In this document: in pieces, positions 2,233 to 39,565 of the stretch
Layout of the letters: each line of letters opens with the position of its first letter
Position numbering within the stretch: the stretch's first letter is position 1
Notes under the pieces: model-generated
What the model was told of the DNA's origin: nothing
The model's input: only the letters and a program-made list of their open reading frames with translations
Databases searched by the model: none
Assembly: GCA_035691485.1 (NCBI GenBank)
Contig: DASSIZ010000079.1
Location: 1-48,798 of the forward strand
Source: Terriglobales bacterium
GTDB lineage: Bacteria > Acidobacteriota > Terriglobia > Terriglobales > Acidobacteriaceae
DNA length: 48,798 bases
Reading direction: 5' to 3'
Made by a program: the position numbers and the translations under genes

Positions 2233-3069
2233 TCAGGCGACGCGGGGTTCGGAATGCAAGCTGAGGAACGCTTCAACCGAGTAGCGGATTTGGGTATCGA
2301 GGTTTTCGCTGAGATCGATGAGGTCGGACATCAGGTAGCTGATGTTGGCCTCCAGCAGGTGACGTTGGATGGCGGTGAGAAGAGCGCGGCGGAGGAAACG
2401 GCTCTCCTTGAGCACCATGGGCAAGGTATAGCCCTGCCGGCGGCGCTGGTGGCCGTGCTGAGTGGCGGCGGCAAGGGCGGCGTCGCTGACAACGCCGCGA
2501 TGCTCCTCCAGCATTTCAATCACCTCGGCCAGCATCACGGGAATATGGTCGGCGCGCTCCCGGTCATTCAGCGGAATGGAGTTGATCTCGGAGTCGCCAT
2601 TGCACATGGTCAGCCAGTCCTCCATCACCTCCTTTTGATATTGATGGAGCAGAGTGGCTAGCCGGAGCAGCGGACGCTGGAAGCGAGGCTGTTGGCTGCG
2701 CAGCCGCTCCTGGATATTCGAAAGCAGGGCCGGAATATTGGCCGGCTTAACAATGTAATCGTCGACCTGGTTGCGGATGGCCTCAAGCGCGGTTTCAAAG
2801 GCTGGGTAGCCGGTGATGATGATAGTGACCGCGTCAGGCTGGGTGCGGCGCATGGCGCTGACCACGGTAAAACCGTCGCCGGGCTGGCCGATGTTGAGAT
2901 CGGCGAGAAGCACGTCGAATTCTTCCTTCTGTATGCACTCCAGGGCCTCCGGAACGGTGGCGCAGGAGGTGACGTCAAAGCCATGCATGCGCAAGATGGA
3001 GGGCATGGTGATGCGGATACTCTCCTCATCGTCAACGAACAGGAGACGGGTTGGGCGGGAGGAGTCCAA
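2233..3069 (-). CDS. Response regulator with RsbRD-like C-terminal domain
   Basis: A 278-residue protein. Residues 7-125 are a receiver domain: acidic pair at FVDDEE, phosphoacceptor Asp57 in LLADLN, Thr in IIITGYP, and Lys in DYIVKP. Residues 135-270 form an all-helical domain (LLHQYQKEVMEDW, HIPVMLAEVIEMLEEH, RRALLTAIQRHLLEAN) resembling the RsbRD_N sensor fold of stressosome proteins. It has no DNA-binding domain, so output is probably by protein contact. It sits 216 bases downstream of the NarL-type regulator and in the same direction, so it may belong to the same signalling cluster. The C-terminal assignment is by pattern, not by search. Confidence 0.85.
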   Translation of the reverse strand: MDSSRPTRLLFVDDEESIRITMPSILRMHGFDVTSCATVPEALECIQKEEFDVLLADLNIGQPGDGFTVVSAMRRTQPDAVTIIITGYPAFETALEAIRNQVDDYIVKPANIPALLSNIQERLRSQQPRFQRPLLRLATLLHQYQKEVMEDWLTMCNGDSEINSIPLNDRERADHIPVMLAEVIEMLEEHRGVVSDAALAAATQHGHQRRRQGYTLPMVLKESRFLRRALLTAIQRHLLEANISYLMSDLIDLSENLDTQIRYSVEAFLSLHSEPRVA

Positions 3070-29367: not shown

Positions 29368-31164
29368 TCACCACGCTCCCGCCCACCTGTGCCCCCGGAC
29401 GTCTGCCCCGGCCTTGATCACCTTGTTCTCAGAGTCGTACACGATCATGGTCGGCGAACTCGAGTTCTGCCAGTCGCCTTGCAGAATTAGCTTGTGGCCC
29501 AGCGCGCGCAACTCTTCCATGGTGGACTGCGGGAACCGGCTCTCCACTTGTAACCCCAGCGGATTGTCGCCGTGATCGTCGAATGAACTGTACATCGCCA
29601 CCGAGTTGAAGCGCGGCGCTTCCACTGCGTCCTGCGGCTGCATTCCGAATTCAACGATGTTGAGGAAAACCTGCAGCAGTGTCTGGTCCTGGCTGTCGCC
29701 CCCGGGCGTGGAGAACGCCAGCCACGGCGCGCCCTTTTTCAGCGCGATGGTCGGCGTCAGCGTGATCCGCGGCCGCTTGCCCGGCCCGATCTGGTTGGGA
29801 TGTCCCGGCGTCAGCACGAACGCCTGCGCGCGCTGCGTCAGCGGAATGCCGGTATCGGCGGCCATCATGGCGGGAATCCAGGCCCCACTCGGCGTTGCCG
29901 AAAACATGTTTCCGGCTTCATCGATCACGTTGACGCACGTCGTGTCCTGGTGTTCGGCGTTGCGGTCGCGCAGCCGCGCCTTGGCGAACTCCACCGGCGC
30001 CTCAGCTTTTAACCGCAGCGGATCGCCCACGCGGTGCTCCGGCGACGCCCGCCTGCTGTCGATCAACCCGCGCCGCACGTTCGCATATTGCTTCGAGATC
30101 AGTTGCTCGGGAATGCTCGACTGTTGCGGGTCGCCGTAGTACGCGTCGCGATCGGCGTATCCCAGCTTCATCGCTTCCACCACGGTGTGCACGTAGCGCG
30201 CGGAGTTGTGTCCCAGGCTGCGCAGGTCGAACGCCTCCAGCAGATTCAGGTTCTGCAGAAAAACCGGCCCCTGGCTCCAGTAGCCGACCTTGTAAACGTC
30301 CACGCCACGATAGCTGGTGGTCAGCGGCTTCTCCACCTGCGCGTGGAACATCTTGAGGTCCCGTTCTCGCAGCAGGCAGCCGTTTTCTTCGCAGTATTTG
30401 CCGATTTTTTTTGCGATTGGACCGCGGTAGAAAAAGTCGCGCACCGCATCGATCGCTCCGGCGCGCTTCTTCCGCTTCGCTCTCCTCTCCGCGTCGGCCA
30501 TGGACTTGAGCGTCTTCGCCAGCTCCGGCTGCGGCCACACCGCTCCCTCCGCCACCGCCTTGTCCTTGGGCTTGTACACGCGCTCCGACGTTGGCCACTT
30601 CACGTAGGTCGGTTCGTGCTGTTTCAGTGTGCCGGCCAGCCGCTGGTCGGCCGGGAATCCTTTCGCCAGCTCGATCGCCGGCTCAATCACCTCGCTGAAG
30701 CTCATCGTCCCGAATTCCTTCAGCGCCACCAGCAGCCCGTCAATCATTCCCGGGACGATCGCGCTCAGCGGCCCGTATGCCGGGATAATCCCGTTCTTCC
30801 CAGCGATCATCACCGGAAACGGTCCGCGCCGCGCATCGTTCGGATTCAAATTCAGAAAAAAGGTCGCGGTTGCCAGTTGCGGCGCGACGCCACAGCCGTT
30901 GATCGCTGCCACCGGCTTGCCTTTCACCTTGACCAGGATCGGAACTTCGCCGCCCAGCCCGCAGCTCGCCTGCTCCACCACCGCCGCTGCGAACACCGTG
31001 GCAACACCCGCGTCCACCGCGTTGCCACCTTTCTGCAGCATTCGCATTCCCGCCTCGACCACCAGCGGATGCCCCGCCGCCACCACGCCCCTGCGCCCCA
31101 TTACCTGCGGCTTCAGCGTGGAAGGCGCAAAGCTGTGCGGAGTGTACTTTTCGGTCTCAGCCAT
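29368..31164 (-). CDS. Gamma-glutamyltransferase-like N-terminal nucleophile hydrolase
   Basis: A 598-residue cytoplasmic protein (no signal peptide). The fold signatures VAAGHPLVVEAGMRMLQKGG, GKRPRITLTP and STPGGDSQD are those of the family that self-cleaves before a catalytic Thr; here Thr408 in DTTCVNV. The Arg that binds the substrate alpha-carboxylate in true enzymes (RETAP) is replaced: INGCGVAP has Cys91 there. The protein is therefore unlikely to use gamma-glutamyl donors such as glutathione. It may be an acylase of a related class. A start with a GGGAGACGAG-type ribosome site is clear. Confidence 0.85.
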   Translation of the reverse strand: MAETEKYTPHSFAPSTLKPQVMGRRGVVAAGHPLVVEAGMRMLQKGGNAVDAGVATVFAAAVVEQASCGLGGEVPILVKVKGKPVAAINGCGVAPQLATATFFLNLNPNDARRGPFPVMIAGKNGIIPAYGPLSAIVPGMIDGLLVALKEFGTMSFSEVIEPAIELAKGFPADQRLAGTLKQHEPTYVKWPTSERVYKPKDKAVAEGAVWPQPELAKTLKSMADAERRAKRKKRAGAIDAVRDFFYRGPIAKKIGKYCEENGCLLRERDLKMFHAQVEKPLTTSYRGVDVYKVGYWSQGPVFLQNLNLLEAFDLRSLGHNSARYVHTVVEAMKLGYADRDAYYGDPQQSSIPEQLISKQYANVRRGLIDSRRASPEHRVGDPLRLKAEAPVEFAKARLRDRNAEHQDTTCVNVIDEAGNMFSATPSGAWIPAMMAADTGIPLTQRAQAFVLTPGHPNQIGPGKRPRITLTPTIALKKGAPWLAFSTPGGDSQDQTLLQVFLNIVEFGMQPQDAVEAPRFNSVAMYSSFDDHGDNPLGLQVESRFPQSTMEELRALGHKLILQGDWQNSSSPTMIVYDSENKVIKAGADVRGHRWAGAW

Positions 31165-31278
31165 CTCGTCTCCCTCAATAGAAAATTGGCCACGGAGAGC
31201 ACAGAGGAAAGATTTAGGAAAAGCAAAGTTTACCGCACGAATTGCTTCCGAGGGATTTTGCGGATTGTGTGGCTAATT

Positions 31279-32013
31279 CTAGAAGGCGATCCTAGTTAGG
31301 ACCGCCAACAGCACGAACCCGGAAATCAATCCCAGGCTTGGCGATTTCGAATCCGACTGCGCGTGGCTCTCCGGAATCAGCTGGTCCGACGCCACGAAGA
31401 TCATCGCCCCCGCCGCCAGCGCCATGCCGAACGGCATCATGCCGTCCAACGTTCCCGCGAACCAGACGCCTACCGCGGCTGCCAGCGGTTCCGTCAATCC
31501 CGAGAGCGACGCCCACGCGATCGCTTTGGGCCTCGAGAAACCCGCCGCGCGCAGCGGCATGGCAACCGCCAATCCTTCAGGAATGTTTTGGAGAGCGATG
31601 GCGATGGCCACGATCAGGCCCATGCCCCTGGTCCCGCCACCGAAGGCGACTCCGATCGCCAATCCCTCCGGGACGTGATGCAGCGTGAGCGCCGCCGCCA
31701 TCAGCAGTCCCAGGCTCTTGCTTTTCCCGGTAAGTTGCGGCGCGAAGTGCGGCTCCAGGTGAGGCACTGCCAGTTCCAGCAAGTACACGAGCAGCGCGCC
31801 GCACAATAATCCCAGCGTCGCCGGCACGATGCCTTTTTGCGACAGCGCCGGCCACAGCAGCGTGATCGAGCCCGCTGCCAGCATTACGCCGGCTGAGAAG
31901 CCCAGCAGTGTGTCGTACAGACGGCGCGAAATCCGCGGCAGCAGTGCGATCATCACGCCGCCCAGCCCGGTCGCCAGTCCCGCCAGCAAACTTGCTATCA
32001 GCGCCGCTTTCAT
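31279..32013 (-). CDS. ZIP-family divalent metal transporter
   Basis: A 244-residue, eight-helix membrane protein. The paired metal-binding helices carry the signatures LHHVPEGLAIG and LQNIPEGLAVA. The variable loop between helices 3 and 4 is short (FAPQLTGKSK). ZIP proteins bring Zn, Fe or Mn into the cytoplasm. The ATG at 32013 is chosen over an upstream TTG at 32043, since the latter adds a polar stretch. It lies downstream of the 2-oxoacid oxidoreductase genes in the same direction with a gap of 87 bases, so it could be the last gene of that unit. Confidence 0.88.
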   Translation of the reverse strand: MKAALIASLLAGLATGLGGVMIALLPRISRRLYDTLLGFSAGVMLAAGSITLLWPALSQKGIVPATLGLLCGALLVYLLELAVPHLEPHFAPQLTGKSKSLGLLMAAALTLHHVPEGLAIGVAFGGGTRGMGLIVAIAIALQNIPEGLAVAMPLRAAGFSRPKAIAWASLSGLTEPLAAAVGVWFAGTLDGMMPFGMALAAGAMIFVASDQLIPESHAQSDSKSPSLGLISGFVLLAVLTRIAF

Positions 32014-32072
32014 GAAGCGAAATCCATTTCTAATTTCCGACAAATACGCCCGGCATCTCGAAGCCGGGCGCG

Positions 32073-32100
32073 CTAACTCCTGGCTACTAACTACTAGCCC

Positions 32101-32107
<7 letters not shown>
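32073..32107. repeat. Heptamer-period tract at the oxidoreductase stop codon
   Basis: CTAACTC, CTGGCTA, CTAACTA, CTAGCCC, CTAGTAC: five units with an exact 7-bp step. The last one contains the stop codon of the beta-gamma fusion gene (32101-32103). Confidence 0.75.
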
Positions 32108-33546
<1,439 letters not shown>

Positions 33547-33615
33547 CGCTCGCCTCCGTCTTGCGTAGCGACGGAATTGTTTCCGTCGTGATCGGCAGAA
33601 TGAACTCCGCGCTAC

Positions 33616-34668
33616 CTATGCTTCAATCCCTACGTACTCCAGCATCTGCGCGTGCACTTCCTCCACCGACGGCACGTTGCCGCCGATCCTGGAATACAGC
33701 TCCACCGGCACGCGCCCGTTGATGGCCAGCTTCACGTCTTCCACCATCTGCCCGGTGCTCATCTCCACCGTGAGCACGGTCTTGCAGCGCGTCGCCGCCT
33801 CCGCCAGCGCCTTCGACGGGAACGGCCACAGCGTGATGGGGCGGAACAAGCCCGCCCGCACGCCCTGCGCCCGAGCTTCATCCACCGCCGAGCGCAGCAC
33901 TCGCGAGACAATTCCGTACCCGACCAGCAGGATCTCGGCATCGTCGGCGCGATAGGTCTCGTGCCGCGGCTCCATCTGCTGTGCCAGCTTGTATTTCTGC
34001 TCCAGCTTGCGCTCGTGTTTTTCCAGGTCGTCCGGCTCCAGGTAGATGGAGGTGATCAGGTTCTGCTGCGTCTCCGGCGTACCTTTGACCGCCCACGGTT
34101 TTTCCGGCAGCTCGACCGGTTGCTCTTCCAACTCGATCGGCTCCATCATTTGCCCGACAAAGCCGTCGGTCATCACGATCACCGGGTTGCGATAGCGGTC
34201 GGCAAGATCGAATGCCAGCCTCGTCAGGTCCGCCATCTCCTGCACCGAAGCCGGCGCCAGCACCAGGTTGTGATAGTTGCCGTGTCCGCCGCCCTTGACC
34301 ATGGCGAAATAGTCGCTCTGCTCCGGCGCAATGTTCCCCAACCCCGGGCCGCCGCGCACCACGTCCACGATCACGCACGGCAGTTCCGAGCCGCACAGGT
34401 AGGAAATCCCTTCCTGCATCAGGCTCAAGCCCGGCCCCGACGAAGCCGTCATCACGCGCACGCCCGTCGACGCCGCGCCATACACCATGTTGATGGAAGC
34501 GACCTCGCTCTCGGCCTGCACGAAGGTCCCGCCCACCTGCGGGATGTACAGGGCGGCGTATTCCGCGATCTCGCTCGCCGGGGTGATCGGATATCCGTAG
34601 TAGGCGCGGCATCCTGCCAGCACCGCTCCCTTCACCACCGCCACGTTGCCTTTACATAGCTGCCGCAT
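33616..34668 (-). CDS. 2-oxoacid:ferredoxin oxidoreductase, alpha subunit
   Basis: A 350-residue protein, the pyrimidine-binding subunit of the thiamin enzyme ([42 protein letters not shown]) with the C-terminal transketolase-like domain ([30 protein letters not shown]). The GYPITPASE and SSGPG motifs fit the VorA/KorA branch. A GGAGG ribosome site stands before the ATG. The gene overlaps delta by 17 bases and precedes the beta-gamma gene by 69. Confidence 0.95.
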
Positions 34669-34918
34669 GACTGGCCTCCGCTGCGCGCGGCGCCGCCGGC
34701 ATCCGGTAGACCGTGATTGCTCCCGGTTCCGGGCAGCAGTAGAAACAGATTCCGCACCCGCTGCACCCTTCGCCGGCGTATCGGGCCGGATGTGCTCCGT
34801 AGGCGTTCAACTCCGGCGTCAGGGACAGGCAAGCCGTCGGGCACGAATCCACGCAAAGGCCGCAGCCCTTGCACTCTTCGGTGTTGATTCTCACATCGCC
34901 GCGCGATATCACCGCCAT
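34652..34918 (-). CDS. 2-oxoacid:ferredoxin oxidoreductase, delta subunit (2[4Fe-4S] ferredoxin)
   Basis: An 88-residue ferredoxin domain protein with [12 protein letters not shown] and [12 protein letters not shown], each carrying four cysteines for a cubane cluster. It hands electrons from the thiamin site to ferredoxin. The start has GAGAGGTGAACC as a ribosome site. It overlaps the alpha gene by 17 bases. The gene order delta-alpha-beta-gamma is usual for the VOR class. Confidence 0.93.
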
Positions 34919-34946
34919 GGTTCACCTCTCTATTAACGGACATAGC

Positions 34947-35017
34947 GGGCTTTCGGCTCCCGGTTCTGGGCTTTCGGGCCAAACACCCGATCACCCATGG
35001 CCGATAGCTGATAGCCC
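34947..35017. repeat. Heptamer-period tracts between CoA-transferase and ferredoxin genes
   Basis: First group at 34947-34981: GGGCTTT, CGGCTCC, CGGTTCT, GGGCTTT, CGGGCCA. Second group at 34997-35017: ATGGCCG, ATAGCTG, ATAGCCC. All steps are exactly 7 bases. Confidence 0.7.
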
Positions 35018-35034
35018 GAAACGGATAACCCTTC

Positions 35035-36363
35035 CTAGCCCACTCCGACCGGCGCCACGTGGTTCTTCTGCAGCCACTTCGTCCGCTCGCAATACTCGAA
35101 CAACTGGTCGCGGAACTTGGGGTGCGCAATCGAGATCAGGGCCTGCGCCCGCTCCCGGATTGTCTTCCCGTGCAGGTACGCGACCCCGTACTCGGTCACC
35201 ACGTAACGAATCAGCCCGCGCGAAGTCACCACGCCCGCGCCCGGATCCAGCATCGGCGCGATCCGCGACACGGTGTCGTTTTTCGCCGTCGAGGGCAACG
35301 CGATGATCGGCTTGCCGCCCTTCGCCCGCGACGCTCCCCGCAGAAAATCCACCTGCCCGCCGATCCCGCTGTAGAAGTAGGTCCCGATCGAATCGGCGCA
35401 TACCTGGCCGGTCAGGTCCACCTGCAGCGCCGAATTGATGGCGATCATTTTCTCGTTGCGCGCGATCTGCAGCGGGTCGTTGGTAAAGGCATTGGGGCGG
35501 AACTCGAAGGCGGGGTTCTCGTTCACGTAATCGAACAGCCGCTTGCTGCCAAGCACGAACGAGACTACGACCTTGCGTGGCAGCAGCGTCTTGCGCCGCC
35601 CGGTCACTACGCCGGCTTCCATCAGCGCGATGATGCCGTCGCCCACCAGTTCGCTGTGCACGCCAAGGTCCTGACGGTCGGTCAAGAACGGCATCACGGC
35701 GTCGGGAATCCCGCCAATGCCGGTTTGCAGCGTCGAGCCGTCTTCGATCAGCGTGGCGACGTGCTTCGCGATGGCGCGGTGCGTGGCGGTGATTTCTACC
35801 TTCGGCGTCTCGCAGAGCGGCCGCGAAGTCTCCACGAAGGCGTCGATCTGGTCAACGTGCAGGAAGCTGTCGCCGTAAGTGCGCGGCATCTGGTCGTTAA
35901 CTTGCGCCACCGTGAATTTCGCGCAACGCGCCGCCGTCATCGTCGTGTCCACGCCCACGCCCAGCGAGCAGAAGCCGTGCGCGTCCGGCATCGATACCTG
36001 GATCAGCGCCACGTCGGGACGCAATTGCCCGTTTTCCATGAGCGCTTCGATCTCGCTCAGGAAAACCGGCGTGTAATCGGCGCGGCCGTCATTCACCGCC
36101 TCGCGGCAGTTTCCGCCGATGAACATGGCGTTGTGCCGAAAGTGGCCTGCCATCTCCGGCTTGACGTATGGCGCCGTGCCCATGGTCATCAGGTGAATGA
36201 TTTCCACGTCGCGCACGAAGGGCGCCCGCTCCATCAGCGCTTCCACCAGTACCTCCGGCTCGGCGCATCCCGGATGGATGTAGACCCGCATTCCCGATTC
36301 CACGCAGCGCACCGCATCGCCCGCGGTCATCAGCTTGCGCTTGTAATTAACGTGCCATGACAT
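35035..36363 (-). CDS. Acetyl-CoA hydrolase / CoA-transferase family protein
   Basis: A 442-residue protein. Family signatures include the N-terminal glycine-rich CoA domain (RVYIHPGCAEPEVLVEAL), GGIPDAVMPFLTDRQDLGVH, the catalytic glutamate Glu238 in HSELVGDG, and the C-terminal DFLRGASRAKGGKPIIALPS and YGVAYLHGKTIRERA. Members form a covalent glutamyl-CoA thioester while moving CoA between acids or hydrolysing acetyl-CoA; the 4-hydroxybutyrate CoA-transferase subgroup is closest by eye. It overlaps the RsbRD-like gene by 17 bases, with the ribosome site GAGGTG inside that gene, so the two are coupled. Confidence 0.93.
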   Translation of the reverse strand: MSWHVNYKRKLMTAGDAVRCVESGMRVYIHPGCAEPEVLVEALMERAPFVRDVEIIHLMTMGTAPYVKPEMAGHFRHNAMFIGGNCREAVNDGRADYTPVFLSEIEALMENGQLRPDVALIQVSMPDAHGFCSLGVGVDTTMTAARCAKFTVAQVNDQMPRTYGDSFLHVDQIDAFVETSRPLCETPKVEITATHRAIAKHVATLIEDGSTLQTGIGGIPDAVMPFLTDRQDLGVHSELVGDGIIALMEAGVVTGRRKTLLPRKVVVSFVLGSKRLFDYVNENPAFEFRPNAFTNDPLQIARNEKMIAINSALQVDLTGQVCADSIGTYFYSGIGGQVDFLRGASRAKGGKPIIALPSTAKNDTVSRIAPMLDPGAGVVTSRGLIRYVVTEYGVAYLHGKTIRERAQALISIAHPKFRDQLFEYCERTKWLQKNHVAPVGVG

Positions 36364-36817
36364 GGGTCACCTCGGGCTGCAGTTTTCCGGTCGCCTTTTC
36401 ATATCCCTGCGCCGCGTAGTACATGGCGCGGTCGAAAAACTGCTCCAGCAGCTCCATGATCTCCAGTTCGCCGAACACTTCCTTCGGCTTCTCGACCCTC
36501 GCCTCCTGCTTCACAAAATCCCACAGGTGCTCGCGCGTCATGATGATGGCGTACATCAACTCGCTCAGCAGCACGCCCTGCCGCTCGCGCGCCATGCCGA
36601 TCTCGATGTATCGTCGCGCCACGTCTTCTTCCCGCTTGCCCTGCACCCACTCGCCCAGGTGGTCGTATATTTCGTAGACGCGCTGCCGGAATTCCTCCCG
36701 GGGCACGCGCTTGAAGCCTTCGCACTTCTCGCAGGCTTGCAGCTTCATCAGCATGGTCTCGGCCAGGCGGTCGGAATTGTTCTCGATCAGTTGCACCAAC
36801 GCCTCGGCTACTGACAT
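36347..36817 (-). CDS. RsbRD-like helical protein B
   Basis: A 156-residue all-helical protein. Segments VAEALVQLIENNSDRLAETM, EEFRQRVYEIYDHLGEW, DVARRYIEIGMAR, LLSELMYAIIMTREHLWDFV and ELEIMELLEQFFDRAMYYAA give the amphipathic pattern of the RsbRD_N sensor fold. It is a tandem paralogue of the upstream gene with the same helix order. A KC(E/P)xFxRVP motif with an invariant Cys is common to both. The start (36817) is chosen for its AAGGAG site. There is no output domain. It is coupled to the CoA-transferase gene. Confidence 0.85.
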   Translation of the reverse strand: MSVAEALVQLIENNSDRLAETMLMKLQACEKCEGFKRVPREEFRQRVYEIYDHLGEWVQGKREEDVARRYIEIGMARERQGVLLSELMYAIIMTREHLWDFVKQEARVEKPKEVFGELEIMELLEQFFDRAMYYAAQGYEKATGKLQPEVTHVMAR

Positions 36818-36848
36818 CGCATTTCTCCTTCCGGCCCTGGTTGCTGGC

Positions 36849-36880
36849 GCCCACATCGGCCTGCTTCAGCCAATGTGGAG
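36849..36880. repeat. Hairpin between the two RsbRD-like genes
   Basis: GCCCACATCGGCC and GCCAATGTGGAGC flank a short loop. The same CCCACAT...ATGTGG type appears at 20971, 21160 and, weaker, at 37513-37545. It may act as an RNA-stabilising stem in the polycistron. Confidence 0.45.
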
Positions 36881-36887
36881 CCCGCGT

Positions 36888-37352
36888 TCACCGCGCCAGG
36901 ACGTGATCCTTCTCCGCCTCTTTGGCGGACTCTTCATAACCTACGGCCGCGTAGTACATGGCCTTGTCGAAGAACTGCTCCAGCAGTTCCATCATTTCCA
37001 GTTCGCCGAATATTTCCACCGGCTTGTCCAGGTTGGCTTCGTGCTTCAGGTAGTTCCACAGGTGTTCACGGGTCAGCACGATGGCTTCCATCAACTGGCT
37101 CAGCGGCACACCCTGCTTTTGCCGTCGGCTTCCGATCTCGAAGTAGCGCCGGGCGACGTCTTCTTCCTTCTTGCCCAGCAGCCATTCGCCGAGGTGGTCG
37201 TAAATTTCGTAGACACGCTGCTCGAATTCCTGGGCTGGAACCCGCGTGAAGTCCGGGCACTTGCCGGATTCGCGGAGTTTGGCCAGCAGGCTCTTTGCCA
37301 GCCGGTCGGCGTGCGTTTCAATCAGCCTTACTAAGCGATACGCCAGCAACAT
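36888..37352 (-). CDS. RsbRD-like helical protein A
   Basis: A 154-residue all-helical protein and the first gene of the operon. It starts LLAYRLVRLIETHADRLAKSL and continues with EEFEQRVYEIYDHLGEWLLGK-like helices matching its neighbour. The region SGKCPDFTRVP holds a Cys found also in protein B. A perfect AAGGAGG ribosome site lies before the ATG. As there is no STAS, kinase or DNA-binding domain, it may act as a ligand sensor that touches the enzymes encoded downstream or a stressosome-like complex. Such stand-alone doublets are rare to my knowledge. Confidence 0.85.
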   Translation of the reverse strand: MLLAYRLVRLIETHADRLAKSLLAKLRESGKCPDFTRVPAQEFEQRVYEIYDHLGEWLLGKKEEDVARRYFEIGSRRQKQGVPLSQLMEAIVLTREHLWNYLKHEANLDKPVEIFGELEMMELLEQFFDKAMYYAAVGYEESAKEAEKDHVLAR

Positions 37353-37561
37353 AACCGCCTCCTTCGATCAAGGCTTGGCGGCGCCGAGCGTGCCCGCATG
37401 CCGCGGGCGCCGTCTCTCCAGGTCCGCTCTTCCTGGAGCGAGGCGTGTCTTGAGCACGCGTCCGGTTCACCAAGACGGTTTCCATAATGGGTGCCAGGCG
37501 TTTCTGCTTCCGGGCCCACATCTCTTAACTGCAAAGTGTGGGCTGGCACCGCGTTTTTAGC

Positions 37562-37577
37562 CGTGATAGTCGTCACA
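37562..37577. promoter_or_regulatory. CRP/FNR-type box 1
   Basis: CGTGA, six bases (TAGTCG), TCACA: 9 of 10 matches to the CRP consensus TGTGA-N6-TCACA. The start is 22 bp from the start of box 2. Confidence 0.6.
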
Positions 37578-37583
37578 ATCTCC

Positions 37584-37599
37584 CGTGATATAGCTCACG
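37584..37599. promoter_or_regulatory. CRP/FNR-type box 2
   Basis: CGTGA, six bases (TATAGC), TCACG: a symmetric palindrome. Both boxes have the same six-base spacer and lie two helical turns apart, which places both proteins on the same face of the DNA. Confidence 0.6.
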
Positions 37600-37644
37600 A
37601 TCTGCCTGTGCAGCACTTGTGCCTTGCCTGCGTTCCCGACTCTG

Positions 37645-38319
37645 CTAGCTGAGGAAGAACTCCCGCGCCAGTTCCGTCCAGTTCTGGTCCGGCATCTGCG
37701 CCGTCAGGTTATCCATCGCCACGCCGCCGTCCTGCGCCAGCGCGCCCAGCGCTGCCGGGACCCGCTTCTGCAACCGGTTCGCCGCTTCTTCCGTCCACCA
37801 CCGCGCCAGCCCGCCGCTCATCAGGTTGCGGAAGTTCGTCTTCGCATCCGGCGACTGCACCGTGACCAGCCAGCCTTCCCCGTAGGGATCCTTGCGTGCC
37901 AGTTCCGGGTTCTGCACCAGGGCATCGTTGATGTCCGCCACGCTTCCCTCGATCGGCGACAGCATGTCCACCTTGGCGCCGTCGCGGTACATGCTGATCA
38001 GCTTCTGGCCCTGCCGGATCCATTGCCCGCGCTGCGGCAGCGAGACCCGTTCCACCTTGCCCATTAGCTTGCTGGCGAAATCATCCACGCCCACGCGTAC
38101 CAGGCTCGGGCTCTCACTCAGCGCCCAGGTGTGACCGGGGTGAAACCGCAGGTGCTCCGGCACCTGGAACCCGCCCACCAGGCTCGGCTGCAACTGCGTC
38201 GCTGTCTCGCGCGCCACTGCCACCGCCGGCTGTACCGCGATCTGCACCTGCTTCTTGCTGAAGAAATGATCGATAAGCAGGAAGATGATGAATGTCGAGA
38301 GAACCAGGATGACTGTCAT
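37645..38319 (-). CDS. Membrane-anchored GcvH-like protein without the lipoyl lysine
   Basis: A 224-residue protein. Residues 3-19 are a membrane helix (VILVLSTFIIFLLIDHF). Residues 55-157 have the glycine-cleavage H-protein fold: FHPGHTWALSES, VGVDDFASKLMGKVERVSLP, SPIEGSVADINDALVQNPEL, DPYGEGWLVTV. In H-protein the lipoyl lysine lies in ESVKAAS; the ungapped counterpart here is YRDGAKV, with Gly114 at that place and a lysine two residues on. It probably carries no lipoyl group. It lies directly upstream of the regulated operon. The C-terminal helix (WWTEEAANRLQKRV) is extra. Confidence 0.8.
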   Translation of the reverse strand: MTVILVLSTFIIFLLIDHFFSKKQVQIAVQPAVAVARETATQLQPSLVGGFQVPEHLRFHPGHTWALSESPSLVRVGVDDFASKLMGKVERVSLPQRGQWIRQGQKLISMYRDGAKVDMLSPIEGSVADINDALVQNPELARKDPYGEGWLVTVQSPDAKTNFRNLMSGGLARWWTEEAANRLQKRVPAALGALAQDGGVAMDNLTAQMPDQNWTELAREFFLS

Positions 38320-38739
38320 ATGCGTGCCTCGGCTGGCCTTCGATTTCCGGGCTCCCCGTCGCGGGCGCCTGTGCTTGTTTCGGGCCGTTCGCCACTCTCT
38401 TCTAAGGCAATCGCCATGCCATGAGGCGCCGTGCCGGTTGGAATCTCAGCAACATGTCCGTATGTATCGCGAAACGATGGATTTGCAGTGATAGTCAGGC
38501 GATGGTTAGAAATCTGCTGATGTTTTTTGCAGCGGAGCTTTGAGGACCTTTTCAGCAGTGATTTCAGCGGGCGAATCGATCGTAGCGCGCGGCATGCCCA
38601 TGGCTCGTGCGGAATCAATGGCTTACAAGATTGTCGTGGCCGCTGGTTTCTTTTACATCACCTGTTGCATATTGCCGCATCCGCAGAGCTCGACCTTGAA
38701 AGTTAGCCGTTAGCCCTCTCTTAATTTTAGGAGGTGTCC
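38320..38739. other. Intergenic region, no gene recognised
   Basis: It holds promoter DNA for the GcvH-like gene, a short heptamer doublet TTAGCCG/TTAGCCC at 38703-38716 and nothing else I can support. A frame on the minus strand overlapping the GcvH-like start is not protein-like. Confidence 0.4.
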
Positions 38740-39405
38740 TTATTGTTCTGCCTGTCCTCTGACCACCAGCGCAATCGGCACCGGCTTGCCGTCCTGCGTT
38801 TTGACCGCGCCAGCGAAAACCTGGAAGCCGTCAGGACTCTGATACGTGCGCGGGACATCGCCAGTGTCCGTCGCAAGCAGCACAAACGCCGCAGGATGGT
38901 TTGTCCCCGCAACCTGAGCGCTCAACTTCACCAGCTGTGCGAAGTCATACGCGGTCGTGGGATCGACATCGGTGCTTGCCGGGAGCAGCAGCACGAAGTC
39001 TCGTGTCGGCGCCACGCCCATGTGGTTGCCGTCCTCCGGTAGTTGTTCATAGCGCATGGTGTAAAAGCCGGGCCGGATCGTCTGGCCGCGAAAGTCGCTT
39101 CCGCTGCCGGGGAATTGGATCACGCCGACCAGCGTCGATTCCGCCATCTCGGGATACGCCGCGCCTCTGACGGCCGCAACCTTGCCAACGGGCAGCGACT
39201 TGCGCAGCCAGATCTGGCACAGCACGCTGCCGTCGGGCCGCACCAGCTTCGCGCCCGTTGGATCGAGCGCCGATCGGATTGCAGCCGGAACCGCAGCATC
39301 GCCGCCGGGCGCCGGCGCCTTCTCCAGCTTGGCTTGCGGGAACGCGGGCAGCGAGGAAACGCAGAGGGCGAGAGCACATAAAGAAGAGAATCTGCGGCTG
39401 TGCAT
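38740..39405 (-). CDS. Exported protein of unknown function
   Basis: A 221-residue exported protein. The signal peptide is RRFSSLCALALCVSSLPAFPQ. The mature part looks beta-rich with a conserved-looking core: FRGQTIRPGFYTMRYEQLPEDGNH followed by MGVAPTRDFVLLLPAS. Such sequences recur in Acidobacteria as secreted proteins of unknown role. A CRP/FNR-like palindrome lies at 39442-39457, about 45 bases before the start codon. No lipobox or enzyme motif was seen. Confidence 0.8.
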   Translation of the reverse strand: MHSRRFSSLCALALCVSSLPAFPQAKLEKAPAPGGDAAVPAAIRSALDPTGAKLVRPDGSVLCQIWLRKSLPVGKVAAVRGAAYPEMAESTLVGVIQFPGSGSDFRGQTIRPGFYTMRYEQLPEDGNHMGVAPTRDFVLLLPASTDVDPTTAYDFAQLVKLSAQVAGTNHPAAFVLLATDTGDVPRTYQSPDGFQVFAGAVKTQDGKPVPIALVVRGQAEQ

Positions 39406-39441
39406 GACGGGTTCAGTCTAGCGCGTCGAGCGGATTGTCAA

Positions 39442-39457
39442 CGTGACGCTGATCACT
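39442..39457. promoter_or_regulatory. CRP/FNR-family palindrome
   Basis: CGTGA, six bases (CGCTGA), TCACT. It lies in the upstream region of the exported protein gene at 38740-39405. The GTGA-N6-TCAC core matches all positions. Confidence 0.45.
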
Positions 39458-39464
39458 GCTCACA

Positions 39465-39565
39465 AATTGCGGAATCGGTAACTGCGGAACTGCGGAATTG
39501 AAAAATGAGTCTGCCCCGGTATTTTCAATGACCCGATTCCGCGGTTCGGCAATCACGCAATCGGC
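39465..39565. repeat. Inverted pair of octamer-period tracts
   Basis: Left arm 39465-39503: AATTGCGG, AATCGGT (7 bases), AACTGCGG, AACTGCGG, AATTGAAA. Right arm 39526-39565: CAATGACC, CGATTCCG, CGGTTCGG, CAATCACG, CAATCGGC. The right arm has five units at exactly 8 bp and touches the stop codon of the next gene. The two arms are largely complementary. Confidence 0.8.

Follow-up and report, generated by a model that had tools for sequence, protein, structure and literature searches.

What do two small sensor-like proteins act on when they carry no output domain and their genes stand directly in front of a set of metabolic genes? The question is raised by a tandem gene pair in a contig of a Terriglobales bacterium (Acidobacteriota), whose full length of 48,798 nucleotides (nt) is called the window here. 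Both genes lie on the minus strand: copy A (P0002; 36888..37352) encodes 154 amino acids (aa) and its paralogue copy B (P0001; 36347..36817) 156 aa, and the copies are co-oriented and 63% identical. Non-heme globin sensors have mostly been studied inside stressosomes, kinases or regulators, and to our knowledge their ligands are largely unknown. It is possible that the paired sensors described here detect a metabolite and influence the protein encoded next door.

The gene pair and its predicted fold

Judged from sequence comparison, both sensor genes are real and maintained by purifying selection, with dN/dS between 0.06 and 0.25 in 12/12 orthologue pairs from four loci with such a doublet; both copies are 79–80% identical to their counterparts in a sister genome. 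Besides selection, copy A is supported by its open reading frame (ORF), an AF2 model and VIA-align 2, and copy B by its ORF and a copy-B clade. Ribosome-binding-like stretches precede both starts (AGGAGG for copy A, AGGAGA for copy B), and because of the latter the 156-aa start of copy B is preferred over the longer listed one at 36856 (169 aa); depending on this choice, the gap between the copies is 70 or 31 nt. The end of copy B overlaps the CoA-transferase ORF (35035–36363) by 17 nt, and the same overlap is found again in two other loci (L003, L043) and by alignment in a third (L044). Tandem paralogues of 154 and 156 residues that physically overlap the CoA-transferase gene, as described in the initial annotation, are thus present as stated. 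That they begin an operon is plausible, as 292 nt separate them from the upstream gene, yet a consensus scan of positions 31000–39500 found no sigma-70-type promoter. The same 8.5 kb contain 11 terminator-like sites versus 6.6 in shuffles, none of which is relied on, and a hairpin pattern suggested by the upstream region occurs at two places in the source genome, one of them counted on both strands.

The RsbRD_N label first given to the pair holds for the type of fold (AF2, Foldseek, VIA-align 2) but not as a Pfam match. Copy B scored 13.1 bits against RsbRD_N (cut-off 24.3) and 15.8 bits against HisK_N (PF09385; cut-off 24.4), copy A 14.9 bits against HisK_N (cut-off 24.4) with a further match to Rsbr_N and none to RsbRD_N at E ≤ 1; HisK_N is the highest-scoring Pfam family for either copy, all of these matches are sub-threshold, and an NCBIfam scan of both proteins returned nothing. 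Four relatives scanned gave 13.7–19.4 bits for HisK_N and, in two of them, 20.2 and 20.6 bits for RsbRD_N, whose cut-off (PF14361) was passed by a Nudix-fused relative (31.5 bits) and by three relatives in six-frame searches (G100, G102, G095). The AF2 model of copy A is all-helical (pLDDT 87.4, pTM 0.82). In VIA-align 2 the first two ranks went to solved stand-alone sensors of Bacillus, pXO1-118 (3pmd; Z 16.9, 143 residues, rmsd 2.8) and then pXO2-61 (3pmc; Z 16.0, 131 residues, rmsd 2.3); heme globin-coupled sensors scored at most Z 14.9, and the RsbR-type domain 3zta Z 13.2. Foldseek also placed 3pmc first (E 0.0074, TM 0.69/0.79), with 2bnl at TM 0.61/0.72, and the family profile matches pXO2-61 with E 7.3e-6 over profile positions 10–143. 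The predicted fold is therefore of the RsbR N-terminal type and, as anticipated, without an output domain; no STAS domain was matched in either protein by Pfam. On profile and model comparison, the two proteins almost certainly belong to an unnamed family (C0) of stand-alone non-heme globin-fold sensors.

Across the 63 family copies collected (see below), G74, R77, F127 and G138 are invariant (63/63). The top histidine column reaches 35/63 and the top cysteine column 10/63, so that neither residue is conserved family-wide; the non-heme label follows from the lack of a conserved histidine column. The motif KC[EP]xFxRVP is common to both window copies, as had been noticed, and absent from the other 61, a looser form being limited to the eight doublet copies. 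The cysteine of this motif had been taken as a possible redox mark, a reading that does not extend beyond one clade: Cys32 is found in 10/63 copies, namely the eight doublet copies, L011 and L074, and CxxC in 6/8 doublet copies and also in L085. Cys-based redox sensing was accordingly rejected as a family trait, while it is possible within the doublet clade. Stand-alone domains, presented as unusual, are the rule in this family: as longest ORFs, 62/63 copies measure 142–242 aa, the remaining one of 338 aa being the Nudix fusion, and the source genome has a stand-alone RsbRD_N protein in its dsr operon as well.

Distribution and the link to CoA-transferase genes

A single-protein query matched 29 of 199 Acidobacteriota genomes and the family profile 60 of 396, 51 of them above 120 bits and nine weakly (22–35 bits). 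Gene context was taken from 48 of the 51 strong genomes (without G224, G232 and G387) and from nine contigs, giving 59 loci with 63 copies. These loci are not independent, as they include near-identical neighbours (e.g. L003/L044, L007/L008 and L049/L051) and two genomes with two loci each. The genome-contig scan, which covers close relatives only, gave nine loci, all acidobacterial. A mobile or phage origin was rejected: at E 1e-3 the plasmid collection held no relative of copy A, and no viral contig yielded a confirmed one. In the source genome, three genes matched the family profile, all of them stand-alone and none a kinase (9/13 candidates scored; a more distant sensor would be missed). 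The third copy (G000:C77; L042:9577-10020, minus strand) lies behind S-adenosylmethionine synthetase and S-adenosylhomocysteine hydrolase genes; the L074 copy is related to it, and a CYTH-domain neighbour is common to both.

The doublet had been proposed as the unit of the system, a role that its presence in 4/59 loci does not bear out. Its eight copies form one set (support 99/100) containing a copy-B clade of four rows (support 100/99), and according to this tree the pair is one recent, retained duplication inside the window's clade, with single copies elsewhere. Core helix H (residues 113–140) differs least, with an identity of 0.84 between the copies and of 0.84 and 0.88 within them, and this low divergence between paralogues fits a retained dimer surface. 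Seven differences between copies A and B are fixed, five of which alter charge (positions 9, 20, 41, 44 and 86); with such charge changes in the sequence, the copies could have different partners or favour pairing with each other.

The claimed coupling to metabolic genes is borne out in part of the family, as 19/59 loci have a CoA-transferase gene on the strand of the sensor and no more than 450 nt away from it. Two arrangements account for these loci. In 11 loci on the window's side of the tree, the sensor is upstream of and touching, or nearly touching, the CoA-transferase gene, while in 8/8 loci of family f4 it is downstream (f1 and f4 are anonymous family labels of the search tool, f1 being the window's family). 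By whole-genome search coordinates the link is found in 13 genomes, G127 being added with a partial CoA-transferase at a contig end: in f4 the sensor lies 284–444 nt from the CoA-transferase match in 7/7 genomes, and in f1 the link is present in six of the seven sensor-bearing genomes, the seventh (G257) not being among the CoA-transferase matches at E 1e-60. G118 (f4, 86% complete) has the CoA-transferase and gave no sensor match. A rough chance expectation of the linkage is 0.04 of 51 genomes, an estimate that ignores relatedness and operon bias. A tree forcing the 23 CoA-transferase-linked sensors together was rejected (approximately unbiased (AU) test, p 6e-6), with groups taken from gene context rather than from the tree and with long branches present. 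Because the sensors of the two arrangements do not form one clade, the phylogeny indicates either two or more separate gains of the link or an old link with losses in many lineages.

Related domains are also found fused to enzymes. The nine weak profile matches comprise five C-terminal domains on epimerase-family (SDR) proteins (L181, L182, L184, L185 and L186), the N-terminus of one RsbRD_N-GAF-HisKA_3-HATPase kinase (L183) and three stand-alone proteins. The domain is doubled in tandem in the proteins L181:1747-3390 (minus strand) and L182:986-2932 (plus strand), and five relatives of the latter (L191–L195) carry it with 14.6–27.1 bits, compared with at most 6.4 bits in 2412 shuffled sequences. 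Epimerase-family proteins with the domain only once are known from other acidobacterial families (L184, L185, L186, L191–L195). In addition, a Nudix protein with a zinc ribbon (338 aa; L085:8745-9761, plus strand) is fused to a sensor domain of the family itself. At the level of sequence matches, the fused domains, though distant, demonstrate that an enzyme can carry a sensor of this kind.

Possible targets and competing explanations

Behind the pair, on the same strand, follow the genes of a putative short pathway. The acetyl-CoA hydrolase/CoA-transferase family gene (35035..36363; AcetylCoA_hyd_C, 224 bits) has butyryl-CoA:acetate CoA-transferase as its best NCBIfam model (TIGR03948, 288 bits), under the cut-off of 675. 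A small ferredoxin-like protein with two CxxCxxCxxxC groups (34652..34918), seen in the translation and missed by gene calling, has homologues in the same place in L005, L008, L043, L044 and L075, of which the L008 copy matches Fer4 families. It is followed by the alpha subunit of a 2-oxoacid:ferredoxin oxidoreductase of the VorB family (33616..34668; NF005507, 543 bits versus a cut-off of 399) and by a single ORF with its beta and gamma parts (32101..33546; TPP_enzyme_C and POR domains).

Such sensors would probably dimerise through the long C-terminal helices (helix H), like other globin sensors, and their ligand would probably be a small metabolite, apolar or anionic, in the place that heme takes in other globins. 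Because there is no output domain, they would act in trans by protein contact. The likeliest target would be the neighbouring step, i.e. the CoA-transferase and the ferredoxin-linked 2-oxoacid oxidoreductase, enzymes that together could convert a 2-oxoacid released by amino-acid degradation first to an acyl-CoA and then to the free acid; this substrate and its regulation by the sensors are both conjectural. To the whole explanation, globin-fold sensors that bind a metabolite and act on the neighbouring enzymes, we assign a probability of roughly 0.4, and direct control of these enzymes by the sensors, taken by itself, also falls somewhat short of even odds. A more specific version is a long shot: the pair would be an obligate heterodimer, a globin switch without heme, which would bind the CoA-transferase and adjust its activity in response to the acid or acyl product formed when the 2-oxoacid is oxidised. 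If true, it would provide a globin-fold allosteric module for central metabolism, built from separate subunits here and from tandem domains on an epimerase-like enzyme in L181 and L182.

Several observations weigh against local action on these enzymes. No CoA-transferase lies within 450 nt in 40/59 sensor loci, comprising 7/18 loci on the window's side (L006, L009, L010, L011, L042, L073, L074; in L010 it is 4.4 kb downstream of the sensor) and all 33 loci remaining besides those of f4. Other neighbours vary by lineage and include a HemW-like radical SAM protein, UvrB, PilZ, a LysE transporter and Glyco_hydro_3. Scattering next to unrelated genes had been named in advance as a sign against a functional unit, and it is in part seen here, on the window's side too. 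Furthermore, none of 20 CoA-transferase regions, all taken from genomes in which no sensor is adjacent, has a sensor among its called genes. The CoA-transferase was recognised in 17 of them (not in L100, L101 and L109), five contain both Vor genes and seven alanine dehydrogenase. CoA-transferase operons do not need the sensor gene. The Foldseek E-values are all ≥0.001, and the fused domains are distant (14.6–50 bits, where 2412 shuffles reached 6.4).

The best-surviving alternative, which we nevertheless regard as rather unlikely, is that the sensors are trans-acting kinase modulators similar to SkiA (pXO2-61), which compete with or feed a histidine kinase or regulator and thereby set gene expression, the operon merely co-expressing them. 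The nearest structural and sequence neighbours, pXO1-118 and pXO2-61, point this way, as SkiA acts through the sporulation kinase whose sensor domain it resembles (excerpts of PMC5862856). Kinases are also found in the family's surroundings: a histidine kinase gene lies 69 nt behind a stand-alone sensor (L083:8208-9368, minus strand), forming a possible partner pair, and the RsbRD_N-GAF-HisKA_3 kinase of L183 bears the domain itself. The source genome moreover encodes a receiver–RsbRD_N protein without output domain and a second protein aligning with it over residues 7–272. However, its three family genes found by profile search are stand-alone, none being a kinase among the candidates scored, and within the annotated part of the neighbours few kinases stand beside a sensor, namely in L083 and in a Ser/Thr kinase cluster (L058, L059). 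The linkage to CoA-transferase genes and the fusions to enzymes make us lean slightly towards direct local action over kinase modulation.

Less probable still is that the proteins are not sensors but help to assemble the CoA-transferase or oxidoreductase, or form a structural subunit of it, and retain the globin fold as a binding scaffold. The 17-nt overlap with the CoA-transferase gene would suit such a role, such overlaps being common for co-translated partners, as would the fusion of related domains to enzymes. Against this, the same operon types exist without the sensor gene in other genomes, and in f4 the sensor is downstream and separated from the CoA-transferase match by the distances given above (7/7 genomes). 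Membership in a stressosome-like partner-switching complex, as an RsbR without its STAS half, appears very improbable. The fold is common with the RsbR N-terminal domain (2bnl, 3zta), and the source genome contains 19 STAS matches, of which one (contig C65) has the second receiver–RsbRD_N-like protein at a distance of about 7 kb; but neither of its two PF14361 matches (C79, C107) is on a contig with a STAS match, the scanned part of the neighbours contains no STAS gene, and HATPase_c_2 (RsbT-type ATPase) is found there only within the L083 histidine kinase. A bilin or heme protein, kin to phycobiliproteins, photoglobins or globin-coupled sensors, can practically be dismissed, since globin-coupled sensors and phycobiliproteins do make up the structural matches ranked after the two Bacillus sensors but the bilin motifs C.RD, C.QD and RGMC (named in excerpts of PMC10151467) each occur in 0/63 copies and no histidine column exceeds 35/63.

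Direct local action, the reading preferred here, has consequences for how such sensors can be approached. The family is a stand-alone one without a good family model, placed beside one enzyme type in two lineages and with distant relatives fused to enzymes. The defined neighbour gives a concrete partner, and 2-oxoacids, acyl-CoAs and short and branched acids are candidate ligands. The same logic of sensor, ligand and target would extend to a DsrT-like protein of the same genome.

Further genes and comparison with known sensor systems

Upstream of the pair, a GcvH-like protein (37645..38319, minus strand; GCV_H, 69.7 bits) is a putative member of the transcript. A GcvH-like gene precedes the sensors in the four doublet loci (window, L003, L043 and L044) and in no other of the 59; its N-terminal hydrophobic segment in the window is possibly membrane-anchoring. 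A distant GcvH-like protein (33%) also stands ahead of the Vor genes in L102, a locus without sensor. Elsewhere, and in favour of the metabolic reading preferred above, alanine dehydrogenase lies beside the CoA-transferase in L049, L051, L055 and L058, and a Glu/Leu/Phe/Val-type dehydrogenase two genes downstream in L006. Universal stress proteins are found near the sensor in L006 and L010 (one cluster, of which the L006 copy was scanned), and a Nramp-Usp protein in L055.

At the other end of the window, a domain related to the pair follows a receiver, as had been pointed out (2233..3069, minus strand; Response_reg 72.1 bits, RsbRD_N just at the cut-off with 24.3 bits). Profile comparison of this protein with the sensor family gave E 6.6e-5 and a score of 38.5, compared with at most 17.8 in 10 column-shuffled controls. 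A second source-genome protein (G000:C65:18134-18934), the one close to a STAS gene, is 47% identical to it over residues 7–272 and has no PF14361 match. The receiver–RsbRD_N protein of the window has no further domain, and relatives are present in other members of the family.

The stronger PF14361 match of the source genome (52 bits) is a stand-alone protein (G000:C107; locus L070:9220-9804, minus strand; protein L001:1339-1785, minus strand) whose gene has dsrC and dsrM as its two neighbours, dsrB being ahead and dsrK behind. This is the dsrT position, and the name DsrT rests on gene position and not on a DsrT model. The order dsrTMKJOP is given, and DsrT thought to be regulatory, in excerpts of PMC13047784, whereas its function is called unknown in those of PMC11406059. 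Among 30 loci drawn from PF14361 matches (L001, L120–L148), 14, from 14 genomes, contain dsrM. Comparing the profiles of the window family and the dsr protein gave E 0.006 (score 24.7; 10 shuffles ≤17.6) and, with another setting, E 0.3, values too weak to treat them as one family, which was rejected. The model of the dsr protein resembles the RsbR N-terminal domain with Z 10.7, below the trust level of the tool for helical proteins, and its best Foldseek E-value is 0.26; on this model DsrT may be a non-heme globin-type sensor. In the open-licence literature, we found no paper linking DsrT to globin or RsbR, nothing on RsbRD in acidobacteria, and nothing joining RsbR, globin, sensor domain and stand-alone.

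The DsrT-type protein is thus like the window pair in being small, without output domain and within an energy-metabolism operon of the same genome, but it belongs to a separate sequence family and to a dsr operon, whereas the pair lies with CoA-transferase and Vor genes. Stand-alone photocobilins (globin plus B12 domain) are likewise globin-bearing sensors, and according to excerpts of PMC10979010 one of them changed, in vitro, how active a separate enzyme domain was; unlike them, the pair has no B12 domain match in Pfam and no bilin motif. The N-terminus of the PucR-type regulator MabR is also a non-heme globin sensor in its fold, and two antiparallel helices make up its dimer interface (excerpts of PMC11617747), but MabR also has GGDEF-like and helix-turn-helix (HTH) parts, whereas the pair is without an output part. 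With the RsbR-type domains (Pfam Rsbr_N, RsbRD_N) the pair has the fold in common, though it lacks a STAS domain and scores below the Pfam cut-offs.

The closest counterparts are the Bacillus proteins pXO2-61 (SkiA) and pXO1-118, which are stand-alone too, of similar length and with the same predicted fold over nearly the whole chain. The profile match to pXO2-61 includes the FFD-YY-Y end of helix H, yet both proteins are only 12–16% identical to the window family. Stranzl et al. are said to have described, in 2011, a fatty-acid ligand of the Bacillus pXO proteins. In excerpts of PMC5862856, SkiA is similar to a sporulation kinase in the sensor domain of the latter, and deletion of this kinase suppressed the drop in sporulation that SkiA over-expression caused. 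It is a plasmid gene product acting on a sporulation kinase, whereas the window family consists of Acidobacteriota genes, some of them in metabolic operons and those of one clade in pairs. Set against these systems, the pair adds a new branch to a known kind of sensor and does not amount to a new kind of system.

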